Assembly: GCA_934045075.1 (NCBI GenBank)
Contig: OW203722.1
Span: 14,384,796 to 14,448,795 of the forward strand
From: Yponomeuta sedellus
Taxonomy: Eukaryota > Arthropoda > Insecta > Lepidoptera > Yponomeutidae
Reading direction: 5' to 3'
DNA length: 64,000 bases
Under the pieces are notes generated by a model. The model had not been told where the DNA came from and searched no databases. It saw only the letters and a list, made by a program, of their open reading frames with translations. A program made the position numbers and the translations under genes. Positions 1,494-58,275 of this stretch are shown piece after piece. Position 1 is the first letter of the stretch; each line of letters begins with the position of its first letter.

Positions 1494-1499
1494 AATAAA
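1494..1499 (+). promoter_or_regulatory. Poly(A) signal of the LRR gene
   Basis: AATAAA lies about 115 bases after the stop codon. A second copy of this 3' UTR, including the hexamer, exists about 2.08 kb downstream in the duplicated unit. Confidence 0.55.
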
Positions 1500-1627: not shown

Positions 1628-2959
1628 AGCATGTTCAATGATGGAACGATAGAAATAGTTATGCCTCATGGAGTCCATGGAAATAACGAAAAAAAAAAAA
1701 TGGAACCACGATAAAACAGCCGCTTAGTTTATCACCTTGCTCTTATAAAGTCGATGATTGATGCTGCGCGGAGCGTAGTATTTGGTACGCCGCCCTACTC
1801 GAAGCGACGCGACACGCCTGACGACACGGACGAAGGTTTGTATTGGATTTGCAAAATGTAAGGCTTAATGAAAAAGGGATTACGAAAATCAAACAAGCAT
1901 TGAAACGAGGGTCTCTCTCGATGTACAATAGACCCAACCGTTGGAGTGGACAGAGCCCACGGGTATAAGCTGTGAAATCGAGGACTCCGACCTACAAATA
2001 GTTTGACTCGATACAACAATTATATTTAAAAAAAAACTAGGGAGCTCCACATAACATTCTCCTGAGTCACTAATTTTCTTATATTAGACTACACTTTAGG
2101 GTGTAGGTGCTCATTCGCTAGAAGGTATCAAATTAGTCATAGCAGCGATAACTAAAGCAGTATCTTTGCAGTTTCTGGATTAGAATAGGGAAAACTTTGG
2201 TCTAAAAGAAGCTTCTGCTTTTAGAAGAATACTAAATATATGCAGACCCTGAGGTCTGCATTATTTTTAAAGTCAAGGTTTAGAAAACTTAAGATAGGAG
2301 AGAAAAACGATTTCTTAAGTTGTATTTTAAAGAAATCGTTTTTGTAGATGCTGTAGATTGTATAATAATTAACCTGTGGGATCAGAAACGCCCAAACTTG
2401 AAATATAGCCCAAAACCAAATAGTGATATTGTGTAGCCACAAGATGCACCCATTTTATCTTTTTACAATATAGGTTACCTAGAAAATCTTAGCCAGTAAA
2501 CCGCTTCGAAAATTTTATTCAATAGTTAATTATGCTTTATTGTACAAGAAACATTGAGAAGGGTATTACGTAAGAAATAATATGTAGAAAACGAGCTCAT
2601 CAGAAATTTGGTAACTCGGAAGATCAGTGAAAAACGGGTCTCGTACAAACAAAAATCGTCAATAAGAAGCTAGTATAAGCAAAAACAAAATAGTAGGTAT
2701 ACATGACTAAAAAAGAATATCTGTAAAACAATATAAAATAGTTAATAGTTAATAATACATAAATATATATTGCAGAGTTATAACAAAGATAGATAATAAA
2801 TACAGTGTTCTTTGAGTTAGGTGGCAATGAGTGAACTTGCTGGGCAGTGCTAAAATAACAATGTAAGCTTTTTGTAGCTCAGAAAGAGAGAGAGAGAGTA
2901 TAACAAGGAGAACTCTCACCAAATTTTGTTAAAACATCTACGGTATTTAGAAACACGAT

Positions 2960-3057
2960 TCCTTAGAGCATTCCTCAGATAGAGTTTAAATCGTCTATGG
3001 TAAAGGGAAAGACGCAACCGCAGACTATTTAAACTACCTCTGAAGAGTGTTTTAGAG
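2960..3057. mobile_element. Small hairpin (MITE-like) element
   Basis: Imperfect inverted arms (about 24 of 31 compared positions match) surround a short loop. The left arm contains 'cagatagagtttaaatcgtc' and the right arm its approximate complement. A related hairpin lies at 47149-47270. A second copy is at about 5042-5139 in the duplicated unit. No target duplication was resolved. Confidence 0.45.
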
Positions 3058-3192
3058 CAATAAACATAAAGAAAAAATAAAGATAAAGATAAAAAGAAAT
3101 TGTGTGTTTATAAATATCATAGAGTTGCCAGAATACTTAGAGCGATTTGTCAACCATTATAATATGCCCACTAAACAGTACATGTAAGTAGT

Positions 3193-3242
3193 ACCATTGA
3201 ATTTCAAATTCAATGGTACCATTGAATTTGAAATTCAATGGT
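3193..3242. repeat. Perfect 50 bp palindrome (in duplication copy 1)
   Basis: The 50 bases equal their own reverse complement. Each 25-base half is itself almost a palindrome, broken only at its central base. The same structure is at 5275-5324 in copy 2. It could extrude as a cruciform. Confidence 0.9.
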
Positions 3243-3282
3243 AGTACTTACACTATTACTGCACGATATATTCTTATGACTG

Positions 3283-3432
3283 TGTGGCGAGCACATGTCA
3301 ACTCTGCGCGCAAACTACAAACTCCAATATTCCTGCATCGCGCAATCAAAGTGTTTCAATAACATAAGACTTACAATAGTTGGACCGGCCGTCCCCAGGC
3401 ATACGATCTGCCTGGCGGGAAATTTCTCTTTA
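3283..3432 (+). mobile_element. Truncated LTR created by the tandem duplication
   Basis: Matches the first 150 bases of the LTR at 5365-5549, with the same ACTG flank (3279-3282). It ends at the duplication junction, so it is not a separate insertion. Confidence 0.85.
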
Positions 3433-3434
3433 AT

Positions 3435-5514
3435 CGCATTAGCTTTCCTTGCGACTAACTAACCGCCCTCAGTGTTCACTTAATTTTTCTAACTGTAAAT
3501 ATTGTACTATACGTATGTTATGCAAAATTTAACACTGAAAATGGTCCGTTCATTGAGTATACGTTGGACCATTTAATAAATTTTGCCTTTGAATTTCATG
3601 AGTTTCACTATTTACTATAGTTTTGACTAGTTCTCTTGAATCGATTTTGCCTTTGAATTTCATGAGTTACACTATTTACTATAGTTTTGACTAGTTCTCT
3701 TGAATCGAAGCATGTTCAATGATGGAACGATAGAAATAGTTATGCCTCATGGAGTCCATGGAAATAACGAAAAAAAAAAAAATGGAACCACGATAAAACA
3801 GCCGCTTAGTTTATCACCTTGCTCTTATAAAGTCGATGATTGATGCTGCACGGAGCGTAGTATTTGGTACGCCGCCCTACTCGAAGCGACGCGACACGCC
3901 TGACGACACGGACGAAGGTTTGTATTGGATTTGCAAAATGTAAGGCTTAATGAAAAAGGGATTACGAAAATCAAACAAGCATTGAAACGAGGGTCTCTCT
4001 CGATGTACAATAGACCCAACCGTTGGAGTGGACAGAGCCCACGGGTATAAGCTGTGAAATCGAGGACTCCGACCTACAAATAGTTTGACTCGATACAACA
4101 ATTATATTTAAAAAAAAACTAGGGAGCTCCACATAACATTCTCCTGAGTCACTAATTTTCTTATATTAGACTACACTTTAGGGTGTAGGTGCTCATTCGC
4201 TAGAAGGTATCAAATTAGTCATAGCAGCGATAACTAAAGCAGTATCTTTGCAGTTTCTGGATTAGAATAGGGAAAACTTTGGTCTAAAAGAAGCTTCTGC
4301 TTTTAGAAGAATACTAAATATATGCAGACCCTGAGGTCTGCATTATTTTTAAAGTCAAGGTTTAGAAAACTTAAGATAGGAGAGAAAAACGATTTCTTAA
4401 GTTGTATTTTAAAGAAATCGTTTTTGTAGATGCTGTAGATTGTATAATAATTAACCTGTGGGATCAGAAACGCTCAAACTTGAAATATAGCCCAAAACCA
4501 AATAGTGATATTGTGTAGCCACAAGATGCACCCATTTTATCTTTTTACAATATAGGTTACCTAGAAAATCTTAGCCAGTAAACCGCTTCGAAAATTTTAT
4601 TCAATAGTTAATTATGCTTTATTGTACAAGAAACATTGAGAAGGGTATTACGTAAGAAATAATATGTAGAAAACGAGCTCATCAGAAATTTGGTAACTCG
4701 GAAGATCAGTGAAAAATGGGTCTCGTACAAACAAAAATCGTCAATAAGAAGCTAGTATAAGCAAAAACAAAATAGTAGGTATACATGACTAAAAAAGAAT
4801 ATCTGTAAAACAATATAAAATAGTTAATAGTTAATAATACATAAATATATATTGCAGAGTTATAACAAAGATAGATAATAAATACAGTGTTCTTTGAGTT
4901 AGGTGGCAATGAGTGAACTTGCTGGGCAGTGCTAAAATAACAATGTAAGCTTTTTGTAGCTCAGAAAGAGAGAGAGAGAGTATAACAAGGAGAACTCTCA
5001 CCAAATTTTGTTAAAACATCTACGGTATTTAGAAACACGATTCCTTAGAGCATTCCTCAGATAGAGTTTAAATCGTCTATGGTAAAGGGAAAGACGCAAC
5101 CGCAGACTATTTAAACTACCTCTGAAGAGTGTTTTAGAGCAATAAACATAAAGAAAAAATAAAGATAAAGATAAAAAGAAATTGTGTGTTTATAAATATC
5201 ATAGAGTTGCCAGAATACTTAGAGCGATTTGTCAACCATTATAATATGCCCACTAAACAGTACATGTAAGTAGTACCATTGAATTTCAAATTCAATGGTA
5301 CCATTGAATTTGAAATTCAATGGTAGTACTTACACTATTACTGCACGATATATTCTTATGACTGTGTGGCGAGCACATGTCAACTCTGCGCGCAAACTAC
5401 AAACTCCAATATTCCTGCATCGCGCAATCAAAGTGTTTCAATAACATAAGACTTACAATAGTTGGACCGGCCGTCCCCAGGCATACGATCTGCCTGGCGG
5501 GAAATTTCTCTTTA
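3435..5514. repeat. Tandem duplication of about 2.08 kb, copy 2
   Basis: Direct repeat of 1354-3432 with an offset of 2081-2082 bases. It starts with the last eight LRR codons and stop (3435-3462), so it carries a stranded gene tail without a gene. The right border continues without a break into the rest of the LTR, so copy 2 keeps the original right flank and copy 1 the original left flank. Two non-templated bases ('at', 3433-3434) lie at the junction. Confidence 0.95.
5275..5324. repeat. Perfect 50 bp palindrome (in duplication copy 2)
   Basis: Second copy of the nested palindrome at 3193-3242. It lies 40 bases upstream of the target duplication of the LTR element. Confidence 0.9.
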
Positions 5515-9451: not shown

Positions 9452-9660
9452 TTTGATCGTCTCGTAGCTATAATAATAATAAAAGCTTGACCAAATGTTC
9501 TTTATAAAATTTCATCGTTTTTATTCGTACGAATCAGAAAATTAAGTGACATACATATTCAACCAAAAAACGTTGCCAAGCAACTAGAAAAGGTCTATGA
9601 AAAAATATAAATCTACTTGCAACAAAAAGACTATATCCTCATGCATAGTAGTCGTGCACA
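9452..9660 (-). repeat. 3' LTR of the BEL/Pao element
   Basis: 209 bp. I found no difference from the LTR at 15646-15854. It is preceded on the plus strand by the ACACC target duplication. Confidence 0.95.
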
Positions 9661-9675
9661 CTCTCCCCTTTTTTT
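9661..9675 (-). promoter_or_regulatory. Polypurine tract of the BEL/Pao element
   Basis: Read on the minus strand this is AAAAAAAGGGGAGAG directly before the 3' LTR, the usual primer site for plus-strand DNA synthesis. It abuts the pol stop codon. Confidence 0.8.
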
Positions 9676-12600
9676 CAAAGTAGAATGATCTTTTTGAGCG
9701 GCCGGCGCAAAGTACCAGCGGAGGTCCTCACATCCACCACTCTGATGATCCCGTCGCGGCCCGGAAACAGCGCCGCAACCACTCCCCGTGGCCAGGTCCC
9801 TCGTGGCAGGTTCCCGTCTGCAACCAAAACAGGATCGCCGACCTTTACAGTTGGCTGTGCGGCACCGCGAACACGCCGGGGGGCCAGACTTGGCAGGTAC
9901 TCCCGCACCCACCTCCTCCAGAAATGGTCCGCCAGCCTGACGGCTCGACGCCACCCGTTCCTATTACAAAGGTCCGCGTCAGTGAGCTGTGCTGGGATTT
10001 GCCGACCCGATGATGTTCCCAACAGGAAATGGAACGGCGTCAGGGCTTCAGGGTCTTCCGGATCGGGCGAAACGTGCGTAAGTGGTCGTGCGTTGACAAT
10101 AGCTTCCGCTTCCGAAAGAAGCGTTCCCAGGACTTCGTCAGTTGGTGTTCGATCTCTGAGTGTAACACGAAGCGCTGTTTTCACGCTCTTCACCAATCGT
10201 TCCCATGCACCGCCCATAAATGGTGCCGATGGAGGAATAAACTTCCATTCTATTTTGCTGTTGCTTGCAAAGTCCGCCACCTCCTGGCCGTACAGCTCAC
10301 GCAGCTGTCTGTTTGCTCCAATGAAAGTCGTGCCGTTATCCGAGATGATTTGGTTTGGAGTCCCTCGGCGCGCAATGAAACGGCGAAGGCACATTATGGC
10401 GGCGTCGGTTGATAGGCTGTGGACTATCTCCAGGTGTACGGCCCTTGAAGTCATGCATGTGAAGAGGGCTACCCAGCGTTTTTCATGCCTGCGTCGAACG
10501 GCTGTTAGCAGTGGCCCAAAATAGTCCAGACCCACGAACGTGAATGGCCGTTTTCCAAACGACAGGCGAGCACTCGGCAAATCCCCCATGGGTGGTTGAG
10601 GTGGTGCCCCGCGTACTAACTTGCAGAGCTGACAGCTGCGTACAATCGATCTGACAGAGTTCCGTAGTCCCAGGATCCAGTATTTTTGTCGGAGTTCGTT
10701 GATCACGGTTTCCGCGTTGGCGTGCCCGAACTTGTCGTGGAAGTGTGTTATGAGAAGGCGAACGGCTGGGTCTTTTCCATCCAATATGATAGGCCTCGTG
10801 TCTGTCGAGACAACTTCTATGGCAGCAGCGCGTCCTTGAACGTACAACAAACCTTTCTCGTTCACACGTGGGCTGAGGGTAGCGAGCCGGCTTTTCGGTG
10901 GGATTGGATTCTCTCGTCGAAGGCATTGTAATTCTTGTCGGAATGCATTGTTCTGGCTGTTGCGTAGAATGTGGACCTCCGCGTATTCTATATTTTGAGC
11001 AGTCAGTACTCGTAAGGGTGTTTGCGTGGGAGTGTGCGACGACAAAGAGCTATGTTGGGTAAGAACAAAGTTATTTGAAGCACCCCTCACCCTGGTGATG
11101 CATGCGGCGATAAACTGATGCGCTCTAGCGGTTGCCCTAACCATTCTAAGCCATGAACTAAAATGAGCTGGGTCAGCTGAAACTGGTGATGATGACTCAA
11201 CTGTGCTAATACAGTTGCAGCTAACATAATTGCATGACGACGGGATGGATGTTGTTTTCGAATGCAATAATGTTGATGGCGCTTTATTAATACGTGCAGA
11301 TGGCTTCAGTTCCAGACCAACTAATGATTCTACCTTGCCACCTCCCGCTGCTGGTTCTGTTGGCCACTCGGCGGGGGGAGACAACAAAAATGACGGCCCG
11401 CACATCCAGCGCGATTCTACGTTCAACACGGTTGTATCTAAACGTGTCGCATCATCAGCGACGTTCAGTGCAGTCGGAATCCAGTGCCATTCTGTAACGA
11501 CACTATTTTCTAGGATCTCTCCCACACGATTGGCTACAAAAGGTTTATATTTTCGAGCATCGCTACGTAGCCAACCTAAAACGGTCATGGAATCGCACCA
11601 GAAATAACGCCGAATCGGTTTGTTACGATGAGTGTCACAGATGAATTGAGCGAGACGTGAGGCTATCAACGCGCCTTGCAACTCGAGTCGCGGTATTGAC
11701 ACGGGCTTCAGAGGCGTCACACGAGCTTTACTTGCTATCAAAGCTAAGCTAGATTGGCCTGAAATATCACAAAACCTCCAATAAGCAACCGCAACATAGG
11801 CAGACTCACTCGCATCGCAAAACACGTGCAGTTCACGCTCTGAAATCCGTGAGTTACCCAAAAAATACTGCCTTGGTATGCTTAATTGTGAAATTAGTTT
11901 TAAGCTTTCAAACCACTCACACCACGTATCGCAATCGACTACGTCAAATCGGTCGTCCTATCCCAAACCTTTCCGCCACAAGTTTTGAAAAAGAATACGA
12001 CCTTTTATAATAATGGGCATTAGAATGCCCAAAGGGTCGTATATTTGCATAACCATTGTTAGAGCTTGGCGCTTAGTTGCTGGAGGCGATGAACTACTCA
12101 AAACGCCCCCTCCAGAACCACCAAAACTAAACGTCAACTCATCGCGGATTGGCTTCCAGATGAGACCTAGTGTTCTAGTAGCGGCGTCGCTAGACAACTC
12201 TACGTCATTACTACTAACTACGTCTGATACCAGCTCGGCTGGCAATAGGGCTAGAGCCGCGGGATCGTTTGCTATCCAACCTCGCATTTCGAAACCTCCG
12301 CGTTTATGAATCGTCACGACGTCGGAAGCCAGACGAGCCGCATCGTTCAGACTATCTAAACTACTAATAAAATCGTCCATGTATGTGTCGTTCTTGATTG
12401 CCTCCACGGCCACGGGAAATTCCTTTTGGAATTCTGATGCGTTAAGATTTGTTATGTAAATTGCCGTCGATGGGCTGGAGCAAGCGCCAAACATCATCGA
12501 CGACATTCGATATACTTTTAGGGGACTAGAAGGATCGTCCCGCCAGAGGAATCGCTGAGCGTCCCTATCCTGCTGTATTATTTTCACTTGTGGGAACATT

Positions 12601-14288
12601 TCCTTAATATCAGCGGTGAGGGCGATCCTTCCTTCCCTGAAACGCATCAGTATTCCCAATAAAGGTTGTAAAAAATCGGGTCCCGGTAATAGCATTGAGT
12701 TTAATGAAACTCCCTGCGATCGAGCTGCGGCATCATGAACGACGCGAAGTTTGGCCGGTTTGTTAGGATTTATCACACCAAAGTGTGGCAAATACCAACA
12801 AACACCTTTAGGATCTACCCCGGTACACTCCTCGGCGTAGCCCTTAGTTATCGTGTCGTGGATATTATTCCTATATCGTTTCGCATACTCGGGTTCCCTT
12901 AACATCTTTGCCTCAAGGCTCCTGAACCTAGACAAGGCTAAAGGGTAGCTATATGGAACATGCAAATGATCTGCCCTCCAAAGAAGTCCCACCTCGAAAC
13001 GTCCCTCGGGGAGTCGGCGAGCCGTACGTTCGAGTATACTAAGCGCGCGTTGGTCATCGGTACTACGTGCTTCGTGCTTAGATATACCTATTGCGTCTAG
13101 CTTATACTGGGCCTTAATAAGATCCTCGAGCTCAGACCTAACATCAGTTTCTGTGACTTGGGCATGATACGCCATTTCGACGGTTTCAACGGGTCTAGTC
13201 CTACTACTAGCAAATCCGAAAAGTACCCAACCTAACGCTGTTCGTATGGCAACTGGCTGTGATAGTTTTCCTTTTCTGGTGGCCGAAGCTATGGACAAGT
13301 GCCAGTTGTCCATACCTATTACTAGCATTGGCTTGGCACAGTCATAGCAAAGCTCTGTGGTTATGTCCCCTAGGTAGGAGTAGCTACGCAAGTCGGTACG
13401 CCTAATCGTTTGTTTGCATACTATGCCTAAATTTTTAATTGAACGTGCTCTATGTACCCGGAAAGTTTCGGTTGCATGTTTACCACGAATCACGAAATCT
13501 ACGTACTGTACTGCAGTCTGTCTACTTAATCCACCTACACAGTCTAAATGAATTTGCCCCTCGCGTCCGGTGGCGCCAATACGATCAGAAATTGCAGAAT
13601 CGATAAACGTCGTTGAAGAGCCATCATCTAATAACGCGAACGTGTCTACCTTGCCTGCTGGTCCTGAAACCGTTACCGCGACTATCTTCAGATAGGGGCT
13701 GAAGCTGGGCCGGTCACCCGTCTCGCTCGTAGAGTTCGGCGTCGCGGTCGTGTGAGCGGCCACCTCGCGTGTCGTGTCGCCCCCCGAAGCGGTCGGAGTA
13801 GAGGCCCCCAAGGAAGACTCATCATGTGCAGAGATGACGTCGCATTCATCAACATGAGCTGTAGTGGTGGGAGAAAAATCAGGATCGTGAAGCAAAGTGT
13901 GATGCTTGCGATTACAATTTCCTACTTCGCATTTGGTTTTATTTTTATTACACAGACGAAAAACGTGAGAACTCTTCGTCAAACAACGATAACAGATTTT
14001 TTCTTTTTTAATGAACTGCCACCTGTCACTCACTGACAATAACTTGAAGCTGTCACAGATCGATATGTCATGAGATTGATTACAAAACAAACAAGAGATA
14101 TTTTTGTAATTATTATTGGTTTGAGCATGTTTTTTAGGTGCGGCCTGATGATATGATTGACTAGGTTTGTATGAAGCTTCTGATACAGCATGAGTGCGCT
14201 CCCGTAGCACGTAGCCGTAAGTGGTTTCCGCGACGCTGTCGAACCTCGCGTGTAAGTCTACTTCGCGAGCTAGAAAGTTGGACAGCAT
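9675..14288 (-). pseudogene. pol: BEL/Pao Pol polyprotein with an in-frame stop
   Basis: One frame covers the end of Gag and all of Pol, broken only by TAG at 11958-11960. In order: zinc knuckles (CLFCNQSH.., CYRC.., CEVGNC..), an aspartic protease with a DDGS active-site motif (LLDDGSSTTFID), reverse transcriptase (LTADIKEMFPQV and YMDD), RNase H-like region (HVFCDASESAYVAV), an H2C2 integrase zinc motif, the integrase core with Asp, Asp and Glu in GLDYFG, SDNGTTF and GGAWERLVK, and a C-terminal DUF5641-like domain ending KKIILL. The stop falls between RT and RNase H, where related elements usually have tryptophan, so a single-base nonsense change is likely. The N-terminal 43 codons overlap gag in another frame. 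Confidence 0.92.
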
Positions 14289-15579
14289 CTCTACTCTCCC
14301 GCTGCTGGAGGCAGATCATGGGACCATCTGTTTGTGTCGCAGCGTAGTCCATCCATCTCGTGCGTAGCAGCAGGGGTAACTTACTCATAAGGGCCGAGAA
14401 CAACTCTGGGGAACACAAATAGTCAGTAGCATCTAACAACTTAACTACCTCTACACAATTGCGTACTCGAGACGAGAAAATCGACAGCTCCTTAAGCTCA
14501 CTATTAACCTTTGGCAAGTTTCGGATCGCTGCAACCTCTCTCAGCACGATTTGCTCCGGGCGTCCAAAACGCCGTTTTAGTTCTTTCATGATAACATGGG
14601 GTCCCTGAGCTGTTGCCAAGAGTACACATACCGCCTCTCGTGCTGTTCCCTTAAGAGCTACGCTAAGCCGGGCTAGATTTTCAGACGGCGTGTATCTCTT
14701 TTCAGAATCGTAATAAGATCGTTCAAAAACTAACCAATCGAGTGGCGACTTACCATCAAACATTGCTAGGTTAATGTTAGGCTTCTGGCGGTTTTCATTG
14801 TTATTACAAAAAACCAAACCCTCTATCGCAGAAGCCAGTTTGAGCACAGGGTCTGCGACGTCTCTGTGCTGATGTCCCACGGGAGCCTTCGGGTCGTACG
14901 AGTAGTCTTGCTGAAGGCCGGCCTGGGTATTGAGCGGCGTTATCGTCTGTTCTGCTCTCACATAATTTTGCTTATTATAATGAGAATCCTGAGGAAAATC
15001 AAAAATATTAGTATAGTCAATTCCAGCTTGTGGGCTTGCTTGTGGGTTGACTATTTGTGTGGCTGCTAGTGCATTATCTCGGCGGTCGTTTGGTAAAATG
15101 TCGATGTCATCGTCGGCGGGCAAATTGACATTTTCGTCACCTTTCTGAAGCCAACTTTCAATACTACCAGCACTTCGGCGGCTACTGGGTGTGCCACGCT
15201 GGCTGTATTCGGCCTCAATTGCGGCCAAATCGGCTTGGTGCTGTAGCTCAGCGGTATTTCTGTCAAGCTGTAATTTTTTGGCCTCTAACTCTAGCGCCTG
15301 CAACTCTAGTCGTGCGAGGTGGCGGGCGTGGTGTGCCTCGGCGGCGAGTTTCCTCGCAGCCACCACGGTCGCGGAGGAGCGGCTCGTGCGCGTGGAGACG
15401 GAGCGCGGCCGCGAGGCGGAGGGTGCGCCACCGGTGCTCGTGGTGGGCGTCTCACTTTGGGCCTGCGGCGGCGGCGCTACATTCGTGTCAACAATTTGCG
15501 CAGCGGGGACAGCGCTAGTATTTACAGCGCCTGTACCCGTTGGTGGTATAAGCCCCGATTGGCTTCTGGTCACAACCAT
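14161..15579 (-). CDS. gag: BEL/Pao Gag
   Basis: 472 codons starting MVVTRSQSG, about 65 bases inside the 5' LTR. Residues of roughly 85-130 form a charged Ala/Glu/Leu-rich segment that looks like a coiled coil. From about residue 265 comes a region typical of BEL gag (FDGKSPLDWLVFERSY, then GTAREAV and LKRRFG; DUF1759-like). The frame then runs out in Ser/Arg-rich sequence that does not look like Gag; the expected continuation (FLAREVDLHARF and the zinc knuckles) is in the neighbouring frame. Gag would normally form the cytoplasmic particle packaging the element RNA. The switch is either a mutation or a frameshift signal; I favour mutation because most BEL elements encode one polyprotein. 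Confidence 0.85.
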   Translation of the reverse strand: MVVTRSQSGLIPPTGTGAVNTSAVPAAQIVDTNVAPPPQAQSETPTTSTGGAPSASRPRSVSTRTSRSSATVVAARKLAAEAHHARHLARLELQALELEAKKLQLDRNTAELQHQADLAAIEAEYSQRGTPSSRRSAGSIESWLQKGDENVNLPADDDIDILPNDRRDNALAATQIVNPQASPQAGIDYTNIFDFPQDSHYNKQNYVRAEQTITPLNTQAGLQQDYSYDPKAPVGHQHRDVADPVLKLASAIEGLVFCNNNENRQKPNINLAMFDGKSPLDWLVFERSYYDSEKRYTPSENLARLSVALKGTAREAVCVLLATAQGPHVIMKELKRRFGRPEQIVLREVAAIRNLPKVNSELKELSIFSSRVRNCVEVVKLLDATDYLCSPELFSALMSKLPLLLRTRWMDYAATQTDGPMICLQQRESRDAVQLSSSRSRLTREVRQRRGNHLRLRATGAHSCCIRSFIQT

Positions 15580-15645
15580 AATAAATATTTTTTATTAACA
15601 CTTTTTAAATAGACACTGTTTCATTTCACCGTAAAAGGACCACTA

Positions 15646-15854
15646 TTTGATCGTCTCGTAGCTATAATAATAATAAAAGCTTGACCAAATGTTCTTTATA
15701 AAATTTCATCGTTTTTATTCGTACGAATCAGAAAATTAAGTGACATACATATTCAACCAAAAAACGTTGCCAAGCAACTAGAAAAGGTCTATGAAAAAAT
15801 ATAAATCTACTTGCAACAAAAAGACTATATCCTCATGCATAGTAGTCGTGCACA
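15646..15854 (-). repeat. 5' LTR of the BEL/Pao element
   Basis: 209 bp, followed on the plus strand by ACACC (15855-15859). Identity with the other LTR implies little time since insertion. Confidence 0.95.
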
Positions 15855-17232: not shown

Positions 17233-17844
17233 GTAGGATTACAGGAAAGCCAGTGAGACAACCTACCAAAAGTGGCTAGCCTAGTGGCGCAATATTTAAT
17301 TAAAATTCCACTAAAATAATCCTAGTGAACTCTTACATCAAAATGATCTTCAATCTACACCGCAACAGTTTTAGGTCCTAGTGAATCTATTTTCTTCTAG
17401 TAACTGTCATCTATTTCTTTCTGGGCATTGGAACCTCTGCCGCGTAAAAAACAGCTTTTCCTTTGTTTTTAGATTTGAATTAAAACACTGACCCACGACA
17501 CAGTATTAATGTTACATTTTTAGAAGGTATCCGGATGCGCATTATCAAAATGTTACGCAAGCGCTAGCGACCAGTGGACAAATGGGAGCACCCCGCCTGC
17601 CGGCCGCACAGAAAAGCCGTGTTGTCATCAAGCGATCGAGAGTTGTTCGCGTTTTAAAATAATTTCAAATGAAATTGCGCACTTCAATCCGAAAAAATGT
17701 AAAAACACAGTTATTATTGTAACTTTTTTGGCATTTGTAGAAAAAAAGACCATTGTCTTCTCCATTGTCCTACGCGTGATTGTCATTCGAGGTAATATTT
17801 TGGGCCTACGACGCTAGGCTCTGCCACAATTTTGTTGAGAAGAG

Positions 17845-18012
17845 GTTCGAAATTTCACTGGTGCCGGTGAGTCGCCCATTGGCTCAGTTGGAAAGAGCGC
17901 TGGCACGGATAGCCAGAGGTCGCGGGTCCCGGCGTGGCTGGAATTTTTAGCCTCTAAATAGGTTTTTAAAATTGTCCTTAGCACGGGTTAGTGCATTAAA
18001 AATAAAAATAGT
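17845..18012 (+). mobile_element. SINE-A copy a: tRNA-derived SINE, sense orientation
   Basis: Contains the family's short 5' body end (gaggttcgaaatttcactg), a tRNA-like head from about 17876 with an A-box-like 'tggctcagttgg', and the 3' tail (tagcctctaaataggttttt, then 'gcacgggttagtgcatt' and an A-rich end). The B box has lost a few bases ('gcgggtcccggcg'). The head most resembles tRNA-Ile by memory. Target duplication not found. Confidence 0.75.
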
Positions 18013-18258
18013 ATAACTATTTTTACAAGACAGGTCGGACCTAAAAGGTATTTCGCTTGCATGAAAGTAATATACTCGTGGCTTGTAGACTGTCTACTTG
18101 CGAATGCTGTAGCACATCTGTTAGTAGTGCACAGATCAAGTCAAATAGTATTTGTTTTTTTATTTGTGTCCAGTTAGTCCAATCATAATCAATCAAAAAA
18201 AGTAGCAAACCGTGGTATTTTTCCGGGATATAGGCGCGAGTTTAAGTATGATGATGCT

Positions 18259-32890: not shown

Positions 32891-32903
32891 GATATTAAGA
32901 CAT

Positions 32904-33315
32904 TATATTCTTTTTTTTTAATGCACTAACCCGTGCTAAGGACCATTTTAAAAACCTATTTAGAGGCTTATAATTCCGCTCATGTCGGGATTCGAACCCG
33001 TGACCTCTGGCTATCCGTGCCAGCGATCTTGATCTAATGGGTGACTCACCGGCATCAGTGAAATTTCGAACCTCTTTAGAATACTTTCTGTATTACGTAC
33101 AGGCAGCGACATCTGGCTGAAGTAATTTGCTTCACTGGGAGCCCCGAGTACCTACTTTGTAGTTAGGTTTTTTACATCGGAATGATATCGCTGTACCACA
33201 AATTTCACTGATGCCTGTGAGTCGCCTATTAGCTCAGTTGGAAGAGCGCTGGCACGGATAGCCAGAGGTCGCGGGTTCGAATCCCGGCATGGGTGGAATT
33301 TTTAGCCTCTAAATA
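32904..33315 (-). mobile_element. SINE-A copy b: inverted-arm (hairpin) SINE
   Basis: Read on the minus strand: antisense tail and tRNA-like arm (33315 to about 33205), a sense body of about 150 bases, a sense tRNA-like arm, then the 3' tail and A-run (to 32904). The two arms are about 110 bases each. The whole is flanked by a 13 bp target duplication, GATATTAAGACAT (32891-32903 and 33316-33328), so it inserted as one piece. The arms differ at several sites, so it is older than copies e and f. Confidence 0.85.
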
Positions 33316-33954
33316 GATATTAAGACATGTGCGGGAATCCATTGTTTTTTTAATTAAATAAACCTACCCTATATTCCCTCGGGGTAGACAGTGAGGTTTG
33401 TCACTTCCCATGATACTGACAAACCTTTTTCATATACTTAAAGAAAAAACATAGAAGATTATTGCGTGTAGTCAGCCGCTCACCATCTACATCCATTGTA
33501 TCTATTACAAAGTGGCGTGTAATGTAATTGATCCCCGGTTTCTCGTAAACTATCAATTTATTAGTCTCCTGGTGTATTCTACAGCTGGTAAAAGTGGTAA
33601 GCTGATTGCTAGATAAACAAAACTTGGGGGTTAGCAGAGCACCGGCTACCATTTTTTTTGTTCGTGGAGCACTTACAAGTTTACTACTTCGTCACTTACT
33701 ACTTCGTCACGGCGCTTCGATCAAATATTGTGTGGAATAGGCTAGTAATTAAAACAATTTTTTTGTTTCCGAATAAGAATTATTTAAACATGTATATAGG
33801 ACAAAATATAGTAATTCCTTGTACCCACTATGGGCGTGTGAATTTTAATGGAGGCATTTGCACACGCCTTATTATTATTTTTGTCAGTCCTACTAATATT
33901 ATAAATGTGTACATTTGTGAATATTGGCGAATGTTTGAATGTGTACATTTATGA

Positions 33955-34524: not shown

Positions 34525-34732
34525 AGACGACCTCTGTGGCGTAGCGGTAGTGCATCTACCTACCATGCAAGAGGTCCCGGGTTCGAATCCCGGCTGGAAA
34601 ACAAAAAAAAACCCCAGGTCTTGGATGTTTACATGTTTGTGATGTCGCTGTTTCTGGTTCCCACGACACAGGGTATCCTAGTGTGGGGCCAGAAGCAATG
34701 TATGTGCCTGTATGTAAATAAAAAAAAAAAAG
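34525..34732 (+). mobile_element. SINE-B copy 1 (tRNA-headed)
   Basis: The head 'ggcgtagcggtagtgc' (A box) and 'gggttcgaatcccggc' (B box) is followed by a body containing 'ggttcccacgacacaggg' and an A-rich end. A second, 5'-truncated copy lies at 46796-46940. It differs in sequence from SINE-A and SINE-C. Confidence 0.8.
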
Positions 34733-37376: not shown

Positions 37377-38518
37377 AAGTAAGCATTTACCTATCAAACT
37401 ATCGTGTGATTATAGGTTGACACATATAGAACACACTCCGTTTACGACAGTGAGCGTGTCCATAAAATGTGCAAAATAATCCCGCTAATAAATTGTTGGC
37501 CGCTAGAATACTGGCCATTGAAATAATAAAACCGTCAGTCTAAGCCACGTTGATTTAAACATGCTTTTACTTCCTTCTCCTACGTTATGTGTATCTACGG
37601 CATATTCGTACACAAGACGGAAAAGTAAATGGACCTTTTAATTCTTTTCTAAATTATGATACATATTACAACAAAAGTTGTCAAGTTGTTGATATAAGTT
37701 TGGGAGTTAAAGCGAATGCCTCGATGCCGGACATCTAAGCAATCCATAAGTTTGGCGACAAGATATCTGTAAGCCTCAACCTCAAAGGTGTATTTATTGG
37801 ATGAGAAGATCAAAAAGTGGAATATACCTTTAAATAACGACTTAGAGATTGCTTTTCTTTCTAGAGGTTATTATTTAATGTTTATATGGAACAAGACAAA
37901 TATTGTACCATAGTAAGGAACTAAAAACATTAACTACTAACAACTATAGGTAAATGTTTCTAATATTAATCTTGCAAAACGAGAATTCAGTTTGAGGAAT
38001 ATTAGAATAGAAGCAGTTTAGCCGACGCGACGGTAACGTGGGTCTAATGAATTAAACTTTCCCTGCAACAACGACTCGAAAGCTACAGGTATAATGTGCG
38101 CCTGGACTCTGTTCCTCCTACTAAAGAGATTCAAAGGGGTGGAATGAATACTAAAAATAAAATATATTAACAAACATCTGAATCGTTTGACACTATCCCC
38201 ACCTTCTCACGTCACCTGTTGGTTGGCTAGAATAAAATACTATTTAGTACTAAGCAATCCAAATGTACAATCTTTACTGATACAATAAAGAATTTAATAA
38301 TAATAGAATCCAAGGAATATATAGATTTGTAAATTGTACATTGTAATGTGGTGAATGTGGGAAATCGTTACAAATCGTGCGGCTACGATCATATGACTTT
38401 ATAAATAAATGATAAATAAAGTGATGCTCGACTATGCTTGACTCGCGGTAAAGCGCAGGCCAAGTTCTCAGCCTGCCCGCGCATGCATACATTACATTTG
38501 CACGAACTCATAAGAATC
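37377..38518. other. Gene-free stretch
   Basis: Nothing coding or repetitive was recognised beyond short low-complexity runs. Confidence 0.4.
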
Positions 38519-38643
38519 GCAAAAAACCTATTTAGAGGCAAAAAAATCCATTCACGCCGGGACTCGAACCCGCGACCTCTGGCTAACCGTGTTTTGAAAA
38601 TTGCTCTAATCACGAGTTTATGCACTTAAAAAAAAAAAAGAAT
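38519..38643 (+). mobile_element. SINE-A copy c: 5'-inverted insertion (twin-priming signature)
   Basis: Starts with the antisense tail and half of the antisense tRNA-like head (aacctatttagaggc to 'ctggctaaccgtg'). It then switches to the sense 3' tail (from 'ttttgaaaattg') and ends in a 12-base A-run. The inverted and sense parts are adjacent segments of the same element, meeting at the TAGGTTTTT site. A 9 bp target duplication, ATAAGAATC, flanks it (38510-38518 and 38644-38652). This is the pattern that twin priming gives in LINE-driven insertion. Confidence 0.8.
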
Positions 38644-38652
38644 ATAAGAATC

Positions 38653-41560: not shown

Positions 41561-41833
41561 ATGCGATTAAATTCGCTCGAGGAACAGTCTTCTTCGTGTA
41601 CCCGTATTATTATGTTGTTATCACAATGAGTGCATCAATTGTAACGTCAATGAATTGATTTGCAATATAACGACACGCAACATTTTACTGCCGCTATTTT
41701 TGGTGCATCACTATAAAATAACCTTGTAACTCCATAGTATGGATTTTAAGTATAAACATTAAAGTTTGGTTTCTTTATAATTTAACATTTAAAGGTGCCA
41801 GGTAGGTCCCAAAATTATAACTTTGTGCCATTT

Positions 41834-41948
41834 GTACTATTTTTATTTTTAATGCACTAACTCGTGCTAAGGACAATTTTAAAAACCTATTTAGAGGCTA
41901 AAAATTCCACCCATGCCGGGATTCGAACCCGCGACCTCTGGCTATCCA
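41834..41948 (-). mobile_element. SINE-A copy d: simple 5'-truncated insertion
   Basis: Minus orientation. The 3' tail and the 3' part of the tRNA-like head are present, stopping inside the anticodon arm. A 12 bp target duplication, TTTGTGCCATTT, flanks it (41822-41833 and 41949-41960). It defines the family 3' end (gtgcattaaaaataaaaata) and shows normal target-primed insertion. Confidence 0.85.
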
Positions 41949-42331
41949 TTTGTGCCATTTACTTTTTGCTATTCTATTTATTTAATTAAAACTATTCCAA
42001 AGACAACGCCACTACAAAAGTTACTCCGTTCGTTCGATCTCGACCTGTCTGGATAGCATTCTCTCAGGGCCAGTTTCTGAATTGAGAATTCGCTAAGTAA
42101 ATAGTTAACCGTACTGCGGTCTCTTATAATTTCGCGGAAAAGAGCGTGAAAGAACGTTACTTAAAAACGTAATTTACTTAGTGATTTTTTTAATTCAGAA
42201 ACTCGCCATCAGCGGTCGAAGTTTAATTTTTATTACTGTTCGTGGAGGTACAGAGTAAAGAAATAGTAGTAAGTATGAATAATATTTTTGGAGTGATAGC
42301 TTAGCTTCCTAGAATTTTTGATTCCTTGAAT

Positions 42332-45260: not shown

Positions 45261-45318
45261 TTCCGCTAATGTTATTGAGAGATACTATAATTGCAAATTA
45301 GTTTACATAAAAAATTGT

Positions 45319-46675
45319 AAAAACCTATTTAGAGGCTAAAAATTTCACCCATGCCGGGATTCGAACCCGCAACCTCTGGCTATCCGTACCAGCGCTCTAC
45401 CAATTGAGCCAATGGGCGACTCACGGCATCAGTGAAATTTCGAACCTCTTTACAATACTCTCTGTATTACGTACAGGCAGCGACATCTGACTTAAGCAAA
45501 TTGCATTACTTAAAGCCTCGACCACCTACTTTGCAGTTAGGTTTTAACATCGGAACGATATCACTGTACCCACATGATTACACTATTTTAATTTTTAATG
45601 CACTAACCCGTGCTAAGGAACAAATTTAAAAACCTATTTAGAGGCTAAAAATTTCACCCATGCCGGGATTCGAACCCGCAACCTCTGGCTATCCGTACCA
45701 GCGCTCTACCAATTGAGCCAATGGGCGACTCACGGCATCAGTGAAATTTCGAACCTCTTTACAATACTCTCTGTATTACGTACAGGCAGCGACATCTGAC
45801 TTAAGCAAATTGCATTACTTAAAGCCTCGACCACCTACTTTGCAGTTAGGTTTTAACATCGGAACGATATCACTGTACCCACATGATTACACTATTTTAA
45901 TTTTTAATGCACTAACCCGTGCTAAGGAACAAATTTAAAAACTTAAAAACCTATTTAGAGGCTAAAAATTTCACCCATGCCGGCCTTTTAGCCTCTAAAT
46001 AGGTTTTTAAATTTGTTCCTTAGCACGGGTTAGTGCATTAAAAATTAAAATAGTGTAATCATGTGGGTACAGTGATATCGTTCCGATGTTAAAACCTAAC
46101 TGCAAAGTAGGTGGTCGAGGCTTTAAGTAATGCAATTTGCTTAAGTCAGATGTCGCTGCCTGTACGTAATACAGAGAGTATTGTAAAGAGGTTCGAAATT
46201 TCACTGATGCCGTGAGTCGCCCATTGGCTCAATTGGTAGAGCGCTGGTACGGATAGCCAGAGGTTGCGGGTTCGAATCCCGGCATGGGTGAAATTTTTAG
46301 CCTCTAAATAGGTTTTTAAATTTGTTCCTTAGCACGGGTTAGTGCATTAAAAATTAAAATAGTGTAATCATGTGGGTACAGTGATATCGTTCCGATGTTA
46401 AAACCTAACTGCAAAGTAGGTGGTCGAGGCTTTAAGTAATGCAATTTGCTTAAGTCAGATGTCGCTGCCTGTACGTAATACAGAGAGTATTGTAAAGAGG
46501 TTCGAAATTTCACTGATGCCGTGAGTCGCCCATTGGCTCAATTGGTAGAGCGCTGGTACGGATAGCCAGAGGTTGCGGGTTCGAATCCCGGCATGGGTGA
46601 AATTTTTAGCCTCTAAATAGGTTTTTAAATTTGTTCCTTAGCACGGGTTAGTGCATTAAAAATTAAAATAGTGTA
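45319..46675 (+). mobile_element. SINE-A copy e: giant palindromic SINE array
   Basis: 1,357 bases forming a near-perfect palindrome centred at about 45972. The left arm holds two antisense SINE units and the right arm two sense units, period 309 bases. tRNA-like heads lie at about 45347-45417 and 45656-45726 (minus) and at 46219-46289 and 46528-46598 (plus). Four 65-codon frames, one per unit, translate identically. The block starts with 'aaaaacctatttagaggc', ends in the sense tail, and is flanked once by a 12 bp target duplication, ATAAAAAATTGT (45307-45318 and 46676-46687). An 8-base asymmetry and a loop of about 20-26 bases lie at the centre. Sense heads keep A-box (tggctcaattgg) and B-box (ggttcgaatcc) promoter motifs. 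Confidence 0.92.
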
Positions 46676-46795
46676 ATAAAAAATTGTGTAGAAATTTGTC
46701 AAAATAATTCAAATCAATCAAACAAAAACGCTGTTCTCGTGATCGTTCACCACATGATTTATAAAGTTTTTTTTTTAACTTCATTCAACTTGATT

Positions 46796-46940
46796 GATAA
46801 GCGCATCTGCCTTCTATGTAAGAGGTCCCGGGTTCGAACCCCGGCTGGGGAAAAAAACCCCAGGTCTTAGATGTTTACATGTTTGTGATGTGGTTGTTTC
46901 TGGTTCCCACGACACAGGTTATGTATGTATGTAAATATTG
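46796..46940 (+). mobile_element. SINE-B copy 2, 5'-truncated
   Basis: Matches 34550-34700, including 'gaggtcccgggttcgaa' and 'ggttcccacgacacagg'. It begins inside the head. Confidence 0.75.
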
Positions 46941-47623: not shown

Positions 47624-48031
47624 TTCACAGATGGGAGGCATACCTACTGAAATGTTAACAGTATAACACTCAGCAATAACTTGACTAGTCAGTAGTCACG
47701 TAGTCAGAATGAGTTTGCACTGAACAAATGACTGTAAGACTTTTTTTACTATTGGTTAATTTGACTAAACTAAGAGCGCTCGGGGTGACTAGCTCATTTC
47801 CAATATGGATTCCAACGGATACACATTGTTACTGCTGCTCATTTTGTTCCTTCTCCGACAACATCGTTGTCGAATACGAAGATGAAAGAGGTAGCACTGG
47901 ATAGATTACTTAAAAATCTATGTGTAATAGATTTGTACTCGCCATACCACTGTTGTGTGGTGATTACCATTGACACATAGATTTTGGAAAGATCAGATGG
48001 ATCAAAGTGATATAAAACAATAATGGATTTT

Positions 48032-48903
48032 ACTATTTTTATTTTTAATGCACTAACCCGTGCTAAGGAACAAATTTAAAAACCTATTTAGAGGCTAAAA
48101 ATTTCACCCATGCCGGGATTCGAACCCGCAACCTCTGGCTATCCGTGCCAGCGCTCTACCAATTGAGCCAATGGGCGACTCACGGCATCAGTGAAATTTC
48201 GAACCTCTTTACACTATTCTCTGTATTACGTACAGGCAGCGACATCTGACTTAAGCAAATTGCATTACTTCCAGCCCCGACTACCTACTTTGCAGTTAGG
48301 TTTTAACATCGGAACGATATCGCTGTACCCACATGATTATACTATTTTTATTTTTAATGCACTAACCCGTGCTAAGGAACAAATTTAAAAACCTATTTAG
48401 AGGCTAAAAATTTTCACCCATGCCGGGATTCGAACCCGCAACCTCTGGCTATCCGTGCCAGCGCTCTACCAATTGAGCCAATGGGCCGTGAGTCGCCCAT
48501 TGGCTCAATTGGTAGAGCGCTGGCACGGATAGCCAGAGGTTGCGGGTTCGAATCCCGGCATGGGTGAAATTTTTAGCCTCTAAATAGGTTTTTAAATTTG
48601 TTCCTTAGCACGGGTTAGTGCATTAAAAATAAAAATAGTATAATCATGTGGGTACAGCGATATCGTTCCGATGTTAAAACCTAACTGCAAAGTAGGTAGT
48701 CGGGGCTGGAAGTAATGCAATTTGCTTAAGTCAGATGTCGCTGCCTGTACGTAATACAGAGAATAGTGTAAAGAGGTTCGAAATTTCACTGATGCCGTGA
48801 GTCGCCCATTGGCTCAATTGGTAGAGCGCTGGCACGGATAGCCAGAGGTTGCGGGTTCGAATCCCGGCATGGGTGAAATTTTTAGCCTCTAAATAGGTTT
48901 TTA
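48032..48903 (-). mobile_element. SINE-A copy f: palindromic SINE array
   Basis: 872 bases, palindrome centred near 48490, with arms of about 410 bases. tRNA-like heads lie at about 48106-48176 and 48416-48486 (minus) and at 48495-48565 and 48804-48874 (plus). Reading the minus strand, it starts with 'aaaaacctatttagaggc' at the right and ends with the sense tail and A-rich end at the left. A single 13 bp target duplication, AATAATGGATTTT, flanks it (48019-48031 and 48904-48916). It differs from copy e at shared sites (for example 'tccagccccgac' against 'ttaaagcctcgac') while its own two arms agree, so it arose separately. Confidence 0.9.
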
Positions 48904-48916
48904 AATAATGGATTTT

Positions 48917-50207: not shown

Positions 50208-50677
50208 CAGACGCATGCGATGCGACATCGGAAGGTCCGTCGTATGTGATGCGCCACACGTCAGATCCAGAACCACACTCGTCTTACGCCTCGGACATCG
50301 TCGTGAGGCATCGGGCGACTCCCTCCACCTTCCGATATGGACCTGTCGTGTTTTATGCATAGCATAAGAAACGTAGGCTGAGTTAGCTTCATACTCAAGC
50401 GGCCATATCGCACGTGACGTCTAGGGATGTAAAGCGGTAATATTACTTTCGTAAAATTCGGTAATTTACCATATTTTACGTAAAATATTATATTTTACGG
50501 TAAGCTACGCTAAAATTGGGTATAATATGATTTAACTCTTACTAAGAATACTATTGCGACCGCACGGCTGCAATTTTTGAAAGTTTCGAGTCCGTGCAAC
50601 AGATGGAGCCAGTCACTCACTGCGACCGATCATCACTATTTTTTTTCTCTTCTTCATGGCTTGTGCGGTTTGTACAT

Positions 50678-52768
50678 TACGATGGCATAAGTCTAGATAT
50701 GATCATTGCTACACTGCCATTTGCGTTGACTACAATCACTGAAATTATAAACAGATCCATTACCACATCTACTTTCCCAGACTACTGGAAGACGGCTGTT
50801 GTCCGACCAATTCCTAAAATATCCAACCCTGTTGAAGTTTCTGACCTCCGACCGATTAGCTTATTGCCTGTAGTATCTAAAATTTTGGAAAAAGTTATAT
50901 ACGATCAGGTAATCCGCTACTGCGAGGAGAACTGTATCCTTCCAAAAACCCAATCAGGTTTCAGGAAAAGTCATAGTACAGGGACTGCTCTGCTGGACGT
51001 CGTAGATAATATTTTATATGCTCAGGACTCAGGAAGTGGAAGCATTTTAACTTTATTGGATTTTTCACGTGCTTTTGACTCAATAAATACGGATCTTCTA
51101 TTGTCAAAATTATCCTATTATGGTTTTGACTCGGATAGCGTCAAGTGGTTCAAAAGCTACTTAACAGATCGTAGGCAGCGAGTAATCCTACATGAGTCAG
51201 ATGGTACTACGAAAATATCCGAGGATAAGGCCGTTCTATTATAGGGCCTTTGCTTTTCATTATATATACCTCAGAAATAACCGACTGCATTAAAAACTGC
51301 AAGTATCATATACTCGTATATGCAGATGATTTGCAAACGTATACGAAATTAATTCCATCAGAGGCTGATGCTTGTGTACTGCGTCTGAATGAAGACCTCG
51401 AAAGAGTTGCACTGTGGGCCGAAAGAAACTGCCTCGTACTTAATCCGAAAAAGTCCAAATATATGATATTAGGCTCAAAAAATCAAATTGACAAATTAGA
51501 AAAATGCAATATTCGTATACAGTTAAATGGAAATGACATTGAACGTGTTATGGAAGCACGTAATCTGGGTGTTTTAATGGACGGTGAATTACACTTTGAG
51601 CACCATATCCAGGAAGTGGTTAGAAATTGTTTTTATCGGCTGAAGACACTTTATCGTATTCGAGGTTTTATTAGTGAAACGCTCCGCATAAGGCTATGTG
51701 AGACCTTAGTTTTGTCTAAATTAAATTACTGCGCCACCGCGTATGGTCCCTGTTTACTAAAACGGACTCAAAATCTGATCCAACGGGTGCAGAACGCCTG
51801 TGCTCGTTACTGTTTCCATGTTCCGCCTCGCTTTCATGTGACTCCCTTCCTTAACGGCGCGAACATACTAAAGATGGAAGCGAGACAAAACCTTCATTTA
51901 GCAACACTATTGTTCGGGATCATAAAAACATGCACGCCTCCCTATCTGTACGAAAAACTTACCTGGAGACACTCGCGTCGAGCAGAAGGGGTGAGAACAG
52001 TTTCTGCATTGCTCAGTGTACCGAAACATAGGACAGCGGCCTTTCGTGGCAGTTTTAGGTACGCAGCAACCAAATGCTGGAACAATATACCACCGCCATT
52101 ACGCAACAGTAAAAACAGAACAATCTTCAAGCACCACTACAAAGAATATCTGATTCAAATACAAAAATCAAAATATAGTTGCAACGTACGCGTACCTCTA
52201 AGCGTAGCTGGTCCTTCTATAACTCGTTTGCACTAGGTAGATATTCCTCGATGAATCGGCGACTGCGCCTACCGCACCGGCAAAATACAAATCACCTCTC
52301 ATTATATTTGCTTGCTTCACAATTATTCACCCAGTTATTTATTTATTGCATACCCACACACTTTGTTACATTATATCGCAGTACACTTTACATACCAACT
52401 ATTAGGCATGCATTTATTTGATTTTCTTTCTGTTTTGTAAGTATTCAATAATTTTTGTTTTTTTTTTATTTTCACAAACACGCGACTAACTCGCAACATG
52501 GTCTCGACAGAATATCAGCGTTGTGGTTAGATACCTCGGTGGCTGCTTCAACACATGCTGAGTCGGGAATCATTTTAGGGGCTCAATACTTTAAAACTTT
52601 AAATAAATTACTTCTACTAGGTCTACATATTTTTCTGTGCTGTTCTATTCAATTGTTTTTTTTTTTGTGTTTTGTTAAGATTTGCGTTTTTTATGTTTTT
52701 TGTTACCGTTTGGTTTTGTTTTTGAAGTATTGTACCTTTAAATAAATTGTTTCTCTCTCTCTCTCTCA
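50678..52768 (+). mobile_element. 5'-truncated CR1/Jockey-type LINE inside the hAT element
   Basis: Reverse-transcriptase ORF, then a 3' UTR with AATAAA (about 52740) and a TC-repeat tail (52752-52768). There is no endonuclease domain, so the copy is 5'-truncated in the usual LINE manner. The exact 5' edge and target duplication are unresolved. Confidence 0.85.
50690..52236 (+). pseudogene. LINE reverse transcriptase, frameshifted
   Basis: The first frame (to 51244) has the N-terminal RT motifs: FPDYWKTAVVRPIPK, LRPISLLPVVSKILEKVI, SGFRKSHSTGTALL and LLDFSRAFDSINTDLLLSKL (catalytic Asp, motif A). The next frame (51250-52236) continues with GPLLFIIYTSEITD, VYADDLQTY (catalytic YADD) and a C-terminal region ending PSITRLH. 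Around 51225-51245 a few bases are missing, and the conserved GVPQGS block is damaged, so no active enzyme can result. The ATG at 50594 lies in hAT sequence and is not a real start. Confidence 0.88.
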
Positions 52769-56988: not shown

Positions 56989-57340
56989 GTATGTATGTAT
57001 GTATGTATGTATGTATGTATGTATGTATGTATGTATGTATGTATGTATGTATGTATGTATGTATGTATGTATGTATGTATGTATGTATGTATGTATGTAT
57101 GTATGTATGTATGTATGTATGTATGTATGTATGTATGTATGTATGTATGTATGTATGTATGTATGTATGTATGTATGTATGTATGTATGTATGTATGTAT
57201 GTATGTATGTATGTATGTATGTATGTATGTATGTATGTATGTATGTATGTATGTATGTATGTATGTATGTATGTATGTATGCATGCATGCATGCATGCAT
57301 GCATGCATGTATGTATGTATGTATGTATGTGTGTGTGTGT
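56989..57340 (+). repeat. (GTAT)n microsatellite with an ATGC block
   Basis: About 85 tetranucleotide units. A block of about seven ATGC units (57279-57308) interrupts it, and a short (GT)n run ends it. The long Cys/Met/Tyr/Val and His/Ile/Thr/Tyr frames through it are artefacts. Confidence 0.98.
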
Positions 57341-57647: not shown

Positions 57648-58275
57648 TGGATTGATTGATTGATTATTGATTGATTATTGATTGATTGATCGATCGATCG
57701 GTCGGTCGGTCGGTCGGTCGTTCGGTCGGTCGGTCGGTCGGTCGGTCGGTCGGTCGGTCGGTCGGTCGGTCGGTCGGTCGGTCGGTCGGTCGGTCGGTCG
57801 GTCGGTCGGTCGGTCGGTCGGTCGGTCGGTCGGTCGGTCGGTCGGTCGGTCGGTCGGTCGGTCGGTCGGTCGGTCGGTCGGTCGGTCGGTCGGTCGGTCG
57901 GTCGGTCGGTCGGTCGGTCGGTCGGTCGGTCGGTCGGTCGGTCGGTCGGTCGGTCGGTCGGTCGGTCGGTCGGTCGGTCGGTCGGTCGGTCGGTCGGTCG
58001 GTCGGTCGGTCGGTCGGTCGGTCGGTCGGTCGGTCGGTCGGTCGGTCGGTCGGTCGGTCGGTCGGTCGGTCGGTCGGTCGGTCGGTCGGTCGGTCGGTCG
58101 GTCGGTCGGTCGGTCGGTCGGTCGGTCGGTCGGTCGGTCGGTCGGTCGGTCGGTCGGTCGGTCGGTCGGTCGGTCGGTCGGTCGGTCGGTCGGTCGGTCG
58201 GTCGGTCGGTCGGTCGGTCGGTCGGTCGGTCGGTCGGTCGGTCGGTCGGTCGGTCGGTCGGTCGGTTGGTTGATG
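57648..58275 (+). repeat. (GGTC)n microsatellite with graded edges
   Basis: Starts as (GATT)n with ATT interruptions, changes to (GATC)n at about 57688-57699, then to about 141 units of GGTC up to about 58264 with one variant unit (57720-57721). It ends GGTT, GGTT, GATG. The Ser-Val-Gly-Arg frames are artefacts. Confidence 0.98.

Follow-up and report, generated by a model that had tools for sequence, protein, structure and literature searches.

Between positions 45307 and 46687 of the window (the whole 64-kb stretch of Yponomeuta sedellus DNA that was analysed) lies an array of tRNA-like, 309-bp units arranged as a palindrome and bounded by 12-bp target-site duplications (TSDs). We number the unit so that position 309 is its common 3' end (AATAGTGTAAT), here called site A; the tRNA-like part then covers 158-233. 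The inverted arms (45310-45945 and 46000-46635) are 636 nt long and 99% complementary with a period of 309, which recovers the two antisense and two sense units of a preliminary description of this DNA. The single 12-bp TSD that it placed round the whole array was also recovered (ATAAAAAATTGT, at 45307-45318 and 46676-46687), and the outer edges are unlike, as it had stated: the right edge is the 3' end of the unit (site A), and the left edge is internal (site B), near unit position 259 and directly past GGTTTTT, with its T5 tract. We judge that it was right to treat the whole array as the product of one insertion event. Two details were missing from it, namely two additional bases at the array centre (CC, 45984-45985) and the duplication of TTAAAAAC in the antisense arm. 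The parts of the array are:

45307-45318, no strand: left TSD ATAAAAAATTGT, its last base common to arm B
45318-45983, minus strand: arm B, made of tandem antisense units; it runs from site B (unit 259) on the outside to unit 220 on the inside
45935-45950, minus strand: 8-bp direct duplication TTAAAAAC within arm B, copies 45935-45942 and 45943-45950
45986-46677, plus strand: arm A, made of tandem sense units; it runs from unit 236 on the inside to site A (309) on the outside
46676-46687, no strand: right TSD ATAAAAAATTGT, its first two bases common to arm A
45344-45419 (minus), 45653-45728 (minus), 46217-46292 (plus) and 46526-46601 (plus): tRNA-like part (unit 158-233), from ARAGORN and Rfam

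Six inserts of the 309-bp repeat can be defined in the 64-kb window, and four of them are two-armed. The three extra two-armed inserts, near 32.9, 38.5 and 48.0 kb, had all been overlooked before. All four have site A at one outer end and a position near B at the opposite one. The second arm of the small insert at 38510-38652 gave a local score of 24, against a maximum of 18 in 2000 shuffles; this arm is below the k-mer threshold, and the insert (38522) was entered as one-arm in the end-pair and arm counts given below. The further inserts are:

48019-48916, no strand: second two-armed insert with its TSDs (AATAATGGATTTT); its A arm (48032-48486) is antisense and its B arm (48485-48906) is sense
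32891-33328, no strand: third, older two-armed insert with its TSDs (GATATTAAGACAT); its A arm, from 32911, is antisense and its B arm (33200-33318) is sense
38510-38652, no strand: fourth, small and old two-armed insert; its B arm (38522-38590) is antisense and its A arm (about 38592-38640) is sense, with TSD ATAAGAATC
41822-41960, minus strand: one-arm copy, A arm only (41836-41947), TSD TTTGTGCCATTT
17840-18016, plus strand: one-arm copy, A arm only, no TSD found

The window also holds other repeats. A direct tandem duplication of about 2,080 bp occupies 1354-5514 (1354-3432 against 3435-5514, 99.76% identical). A Pao/BEL-type LTR retrotransposon at 9452-15854, with Peptidase_A17, integrase and DUF1759 matches, is likely to be a young copy, because its 209-bp direct terminal repeats are 100% identical in sequence. 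Tetranucleotide arrays lie at 56989-57338 (GTAT, about 87 copies) and 57690-58270 (TCGG, about 145 copies), with 99% matches. A second dispersed tRNA-like repeat is present at 46800-46922 and 34549-34676, the two copies being 87% alike. A fragment of a LINE reverse transcriptase (RT), in two frames (RVT_1), covers 50546-52236, and the A-end 21-mer is absent near its 3' end.

The tRNA-like part of the unit is recognised by ARAGORN and by Rfam tRNA matches (36-40 bits). Over 46330-46700, the Rfam matches down to E 5 comprised this tRNA and one sub-threshold bacterial antisense RNA, HPnc0260, with no hammerhead among them, and the CTGANGA core is absent from both strands of the 309-bp unit. The unit is too short for an RT or GIY-YIG endonuclease open reading frame. 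Exact-pattern scans for relatives in viral contigs gave 0 matches. Unit positions 128-160 and 214-246 (e.g. 46496-46528 and 46582-46614) are 33-nt inverted copies (79%) that bracket the tRNA-like part and form a long stem in the predicted RNA fold; they are perhaps an old inverted segment absorbed into the unit. For one unit from region L047, the predicted fold compared with shuffles has a z score of -4.5 in the sense direction and -1.9 in the antisense direction. Since this unit is predicted to fold far better than shuffled sequence in the sense direction, the sense strand is likely to be the RNA form.

The genome searched (657.5 Mb, 57 contigs) contains 42,072 exact matches to a 28-mer from the unit, and 0 to the reversed control. 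A genome similarity search with the repeat gave 177 matches from the 40 of 552 candidates that were scored. Two sets of copies were analysed. Set one consists of the window and 36 regions from among the matches listed for those scored candidates, with 57 clusters; it is biased towards good, long matches, because it was drawn from 40 scored of 552 candidates. Set two consists of 16 sites chosen with structure ignored; they are the first 17 separate places in the 28-mer list less the one at 134,596, and all are on the plus strand of C1. Before counting, L033 was trimmed (three plus-strand runs left of 1480 were removed) and L056:1547-4791 was split in two. In region L038, two arrays (1462-2778 and 3437-3681) have a near-identical left flank and are of unequal length; this is a local duplication with altered array size.

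The preliminary description had suggested a genome search for further palindromes. In set two, every seed site but L068:1008-1058 is two-armed, with an A end on one side and a B end on the other (15 of 16). A scripted TSD of at least 7 bp is present at 13 of the 16 sites, and none was found at L071, L074 and L079. The array at 45307-46687 is a typical member of a large family.

Pooling gave 54 two-arm inserts. Their end pairs are A/B in 50, A/A in one and B/B in none, while three have an unassigned end (one of these, at L040, is truncated by the edge of the fetched region). Set one alone has 34 A/B against one A/A (binomial p 1e-9 against random pairing). A Foldback DNA transposon is defined by symmetric inverted termini; here the outer ends differ, A against B, in 50 of the 54. 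The ends are also sharply placed. Among the 36 A/B inserts with a TSD of at least 10 bp, the TSD is 12 bp in 20, B is at 261/262 in 23 and A is at 308/309 in 25, and the second (internal) start, site B, is at a nearly constant position among the copies read.

The TSDs are AT-rich (21% GC vs 31% in the flanks). Base matching to the target at B is 2.36, compared with 2.06 in shuffled TSDs (maximum 2.67), and priming at site B is not accounted for by such matching. At A, microhomology is slightly above chance (2.25 vs 1.56, shuffle maximum 2.08), as in ordinary target priming. A symmetric target motif at the TSD edges, AC/12 bp/GT, was considered and dropped: when the longest TSD is chosen, the flanking base next to it must by construction be unlike the element's AT-rich end, so the C/G excess at these edges is at least partly made by the method.

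The arms vary in length, with a median of 230 bp for A arms (67 arms) and 330 bp for B arms (63 arms). More than half of the B arms (36 of 63) reach past a unit junction, and the longest, in L047 and L050, extend for about 2.19 kb, or seven units. Unit junctions are precise, 135 of 136 (in 46 loci) being without an indel within 6 nt. The inner ends are scattered. At the unit junction they are no more frequent than chance predicts (2 of 96 against 3.7), so the unit shows no fixed 5' end there. Where two arms meet, they overlap by up to 7 nt or leave gaps of up to 33 nt, some of the gaps in old copies being decayed unit sequence. Inner ends do collect at unit 232-239, directly past the tRNA-like part, with 24 of 133 in this interval; by comparison, 99.9% of uniform draws have at most 14 ends in the best 8-nt window. 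One reading of this cluster is tRNase Z cleavage, and others are RT stalling or joining at an A/T run. Both arms end within 12 nt of each other in 13 of 54 inserts, where chance gives 4.4. The cluster and the near-coincident arm ends could mean linear templates with 5' ends.

At the multi-unit loci compared, except L042, the units of one insert derive from one template sequence. The comparison used full units only (83 units, 20 loci with two or more). There are 1.58 differences per 309 positions within a locus (1.59 in the same arm, 1.56 between opposite arms) and 5.0 between loci. Variants private to one locus among the 20 are present in every full unit, in both arms, of L033, L049, L050, L056 and the window array; in L037, L044 and L066, private consensus variants are missing from some units. 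Eight columns in total are part-shared (six in L042, one in L043 and one in L066) and 67 columns differ in a single unit, two classes that are indistinguishable in two- and three-unit arrays. Part-shared columns are absent from the six two-arm arrays, other than L042, that have at least four full units (37 units). In L042, the sole A/A insert, the arms carry different alleles at six columns. From this one locus, we read L042 as two RNAs, each primed at A, and the usual A/B case as one RNA primed at both A and B. Arms of the same insert are on average 97.84% identical and arms of different inserts 95.75%, with 0 of 10000 permutations as high; the mean alone was used. The partner arm is strictly the best match for only 2 of 39 arms, because many loci have a common subfamily and the overlaps are short.

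Given two arms at 15 of 16 sampled sites, A/B ends in 50 of 54 inserts, scarless junctions and one template per insert, we therefore conclude that the two-armed form is a regular integration mode of this family, and not a freak product of a LINE-driven SINE. The reading that we favour on balance is that the array at 45307-46687 belongs, as a regular copy, to an abundant tRNA-like retroelement of 309 bp whose copies start from the fixed sites A and B, both cut target strands being likely to have primed reverse transcription of one RNA. In such a scheme, an endonuclease would cut the two target strands about 12 bp apart; copying would begin at A from one 3' end and, on the same RNA but about 47 nt upstream of A, at B from the other; each strand would copy upstream over a variable distance; and the two cDNA ends would be united by end joining. 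The template would presumably be an RNA circle, with a homogeneous multimeric transcript as the less likely alternative; either would let the arms pass the unit junction repeatedly without a scar. It is the multi-unit arms without scars or unit-specific variants that point to a circle. The enzyme may be of the Penelope-like type. This partner remains putative, because a search of the genome for GIY-YIG (PF01541) gave one match of 37.7 bits (21 of 21 candidates scored), the profile's reach for Penelope endonucleases being uncertain.

Penelope-like elements (PLEs) are the nearest precedent for this integration mode. PMC3846280 (in excerpt) and PMC11167929 describe tandem and inverted head-to-head copies with a short 'tail' on one inverted end, internal RT starts, extension of both target strands, TSDs and AT-rich targets, all of which resemble the 309-bp repeat. 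In particular, the Anolis Penelope protein (Poseidon PAc) cuts and extends both strands, starting internally; its start site is not homologous to the cut DNA, and the genomic 'tail' spans the interval from one start site to another (PMC11167929). In the rotifer Adineta vaga, one pLTR of the head-to-head Penelope copies likewise carries a tail (PMC3846280, in excerpt). Head-to-head copies with two alternative ends are also what the 309-bp repeat shows (50 of 54 A/B). In contrast to PLEs, the repeat has no room for an RT or endonuclease, has a tRNA-like part and gave no hammerhead match. Its tail is about 47 nt, compared with 30-40 in Anolis Penelope (PMC11167929), and its TSD is mostly 12 bp, compared with 8-10 in rotifer Penelope (PMC3846280, in excerpt). 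A and B are used one per strand, whereas the PAc start sites are alike on both strands (PMC11167929).

Metazoan retrozymes are described in the excerpted parts of PMC7229834 and PMC7761336 as non-autonomous and of low GC, with tandem units of about 300 bp in dimers to multimers and TSDs of more than 4 bp when present, and RNA-circle copying is a proposed route to their multi-unit cDNA (PMC7761336, same part). The 309-bp repeat shares the non-autonomy, the size and tandem arrangement of the units, the low GC, the TSDs and the circle-copying proposal; it differs in having a tRNA-like part instead of a hammerhead match, and the A/B two-arm form is not described for retrozymes in those parts of the two papers. 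The tRNA SINEs of insects and Lepidoptera, as far as PMC8010984 and PMC6685494 portray them in excerpt, are short and very abundant, with a tRNA-like part and TSDs of about 12 bp. A tRNA-like part is present here (36-40 bits), but the SINE form of a single linear copy between TSDs is replaced by two arms at 15 of 16 sites, and the repeat is multi-unit with two fixed starts. The strings 'tandem' and 'palindrom' are absent from PMC8010984. The 309-bp repeat acts like a Penelope-driven retrozyme, yet fits the definition of neither. As a more specific proposal, plausible but somewhat short of probable, we suggest a Penelope-dependent SINE: a ribozyme-less, tRNA-bearing RNA circle of 309 nt would be copied by a Penelope-type enzyme from both cut strands simultaneously, at two fixed starts and in passes round the circle, and its insertions would be born as head-to-head palindromes of tandem units.

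The twin priming of L1 offers a different route to inverted arms. In 5'-inverted L1 copies, priming by the second target strand takes place within the RNA and leaves an inverted segment between the TSDs, and such copies are common in humans (639 of 2068; PMC2912911, in excerpt). A LINE-driven SINE with very frequent twin priming could prime its first strand at A and anneal the second to the AU-rich B, with end-to-end template jumps building the tandem units; the tRNA-like part and the TSDs suit a SINE, and the slight microhomology at A fits as well. Yet the same excerpt of PMC2912911 reports 5'-inversion in only 1 of 5554 Alu and 4 of 477 SVA copies, so that twin priming is near-absent for these trans-mobilised elements, and it is strongly microhomology-dependent, with 28 of 605 5'-inverted L1 copies lacking microhomology. 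Here two arms are usual, base matching at B is at shuffle level (2.36 vs 2.06), and the second start is almost at one place despite other AU-rich stretches in the unit. Repeated template jumps would be expected to leave scars, but the junctions are scarless and identical, and no LINE with the A end was found in the 64-kb window outside the repeat. We regard this route as unlikely; a LINE with an unusual, fixed second start is possible as the driver. Twin priming was among the routes that the preliminary description listed, and that part stands, but its picture of an odd derivative of a LINE-driven linear SINE is too narrow for a form seen at 15 of 16 sampled sites with a near-constant internal start. 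Two further routes on its list were rejected: snap-back synthesis, because the second outer end stops at B and not at the 3' end, and retrotransposition of a preformed palindromic RNA, because the array centres vary from locus to locus. Overall, its interpretation of the array is partly supported.

The circle itself could be dispensed with if linear multimeric transcripts of pre-existing homogeneous arrays served as the template, the dual priming at A and B being unchanged. For Anolis Penelope, transcription from repeats into a multi-copy mRNA has been described (PMC11167929), and the clustering of inner ends beside the tRNA-like part would suit a linear template. A source array, however, would give both arms unit-specific variants, and there are none in the 37 units of six two-arm arrays. 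Furthermore, the arms read never enter foreign sequence beyond the 33-nt centre gaps. Nor do the inner ends hint that transcripts begin at the unit junction, where 2 of 96 lie against 3.7 expected. We consider linear multimers somewhat unlikely as the template. Growth after insertion, in which single insertions are later enlarged by unequal exchange, inversion and gene conversion, seems highly improbable. Conversion could keep the arms similar, and L038 does hold two copies of one flank with arrays unequal in length; but A/B ends and TSDs of the same kind are found on small inserts with less than one unit per arm (38510-38652, L078, L082), and two arms are already present at 15 of 16 sampled sites. 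Fold-back palindromes are a known class of assembly and sequencing artefact. Judging from the assembled sequence, such an origin is very unlikely, and we give it next to no weight, because the two-armed form recurs at many sites with differing flanks. The arms are unequal, the inner ends, extra bases and TSDs differ at dozens of sites, and decayed old copies show the same form.

The novelty lies in the integration mode of the family, and not in the locus at 45307-46687. Within open-licence PMC papers, we found no account of a two-armed A/B architecture in a SINE. Nor did we encounter in that literature a tRNA-bearing, ribozyme-less family with mapped A and B ends; a Repbase name may exist. The concept is already in print, since a curation guide (PMC8969392, in excerpt) suggests that retrozymes may depend on PLEs and might be regarded as a new SINE type.

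The family bears on two open questions, the integration of Penelope-like elements and the identity of the enzyme that mobilises animal tandem-repeat retroelements. For the former, the authors of the PAc study leave the later integration steps for validation (PMC11167929); for the latter, metazoan retrozyme repeats have no conserved motif that reveals whose machinery serves them, according to the excerpted part of PMC7761336. With 42,072 28-mer matches, young copies and two sharp starts, the family provides natural products that show both the starts and the stops of the cDNAs. If the proposal above is true, Penelope-dependent SINEs would join LINE-dependent SINEs and LTR-dependent elements as a third kind of non-autonomous retroelement. 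Insertion itself can load a genome with inverted repeats, which bears on double-stranded RNA, on assembly and on repeat annotation.
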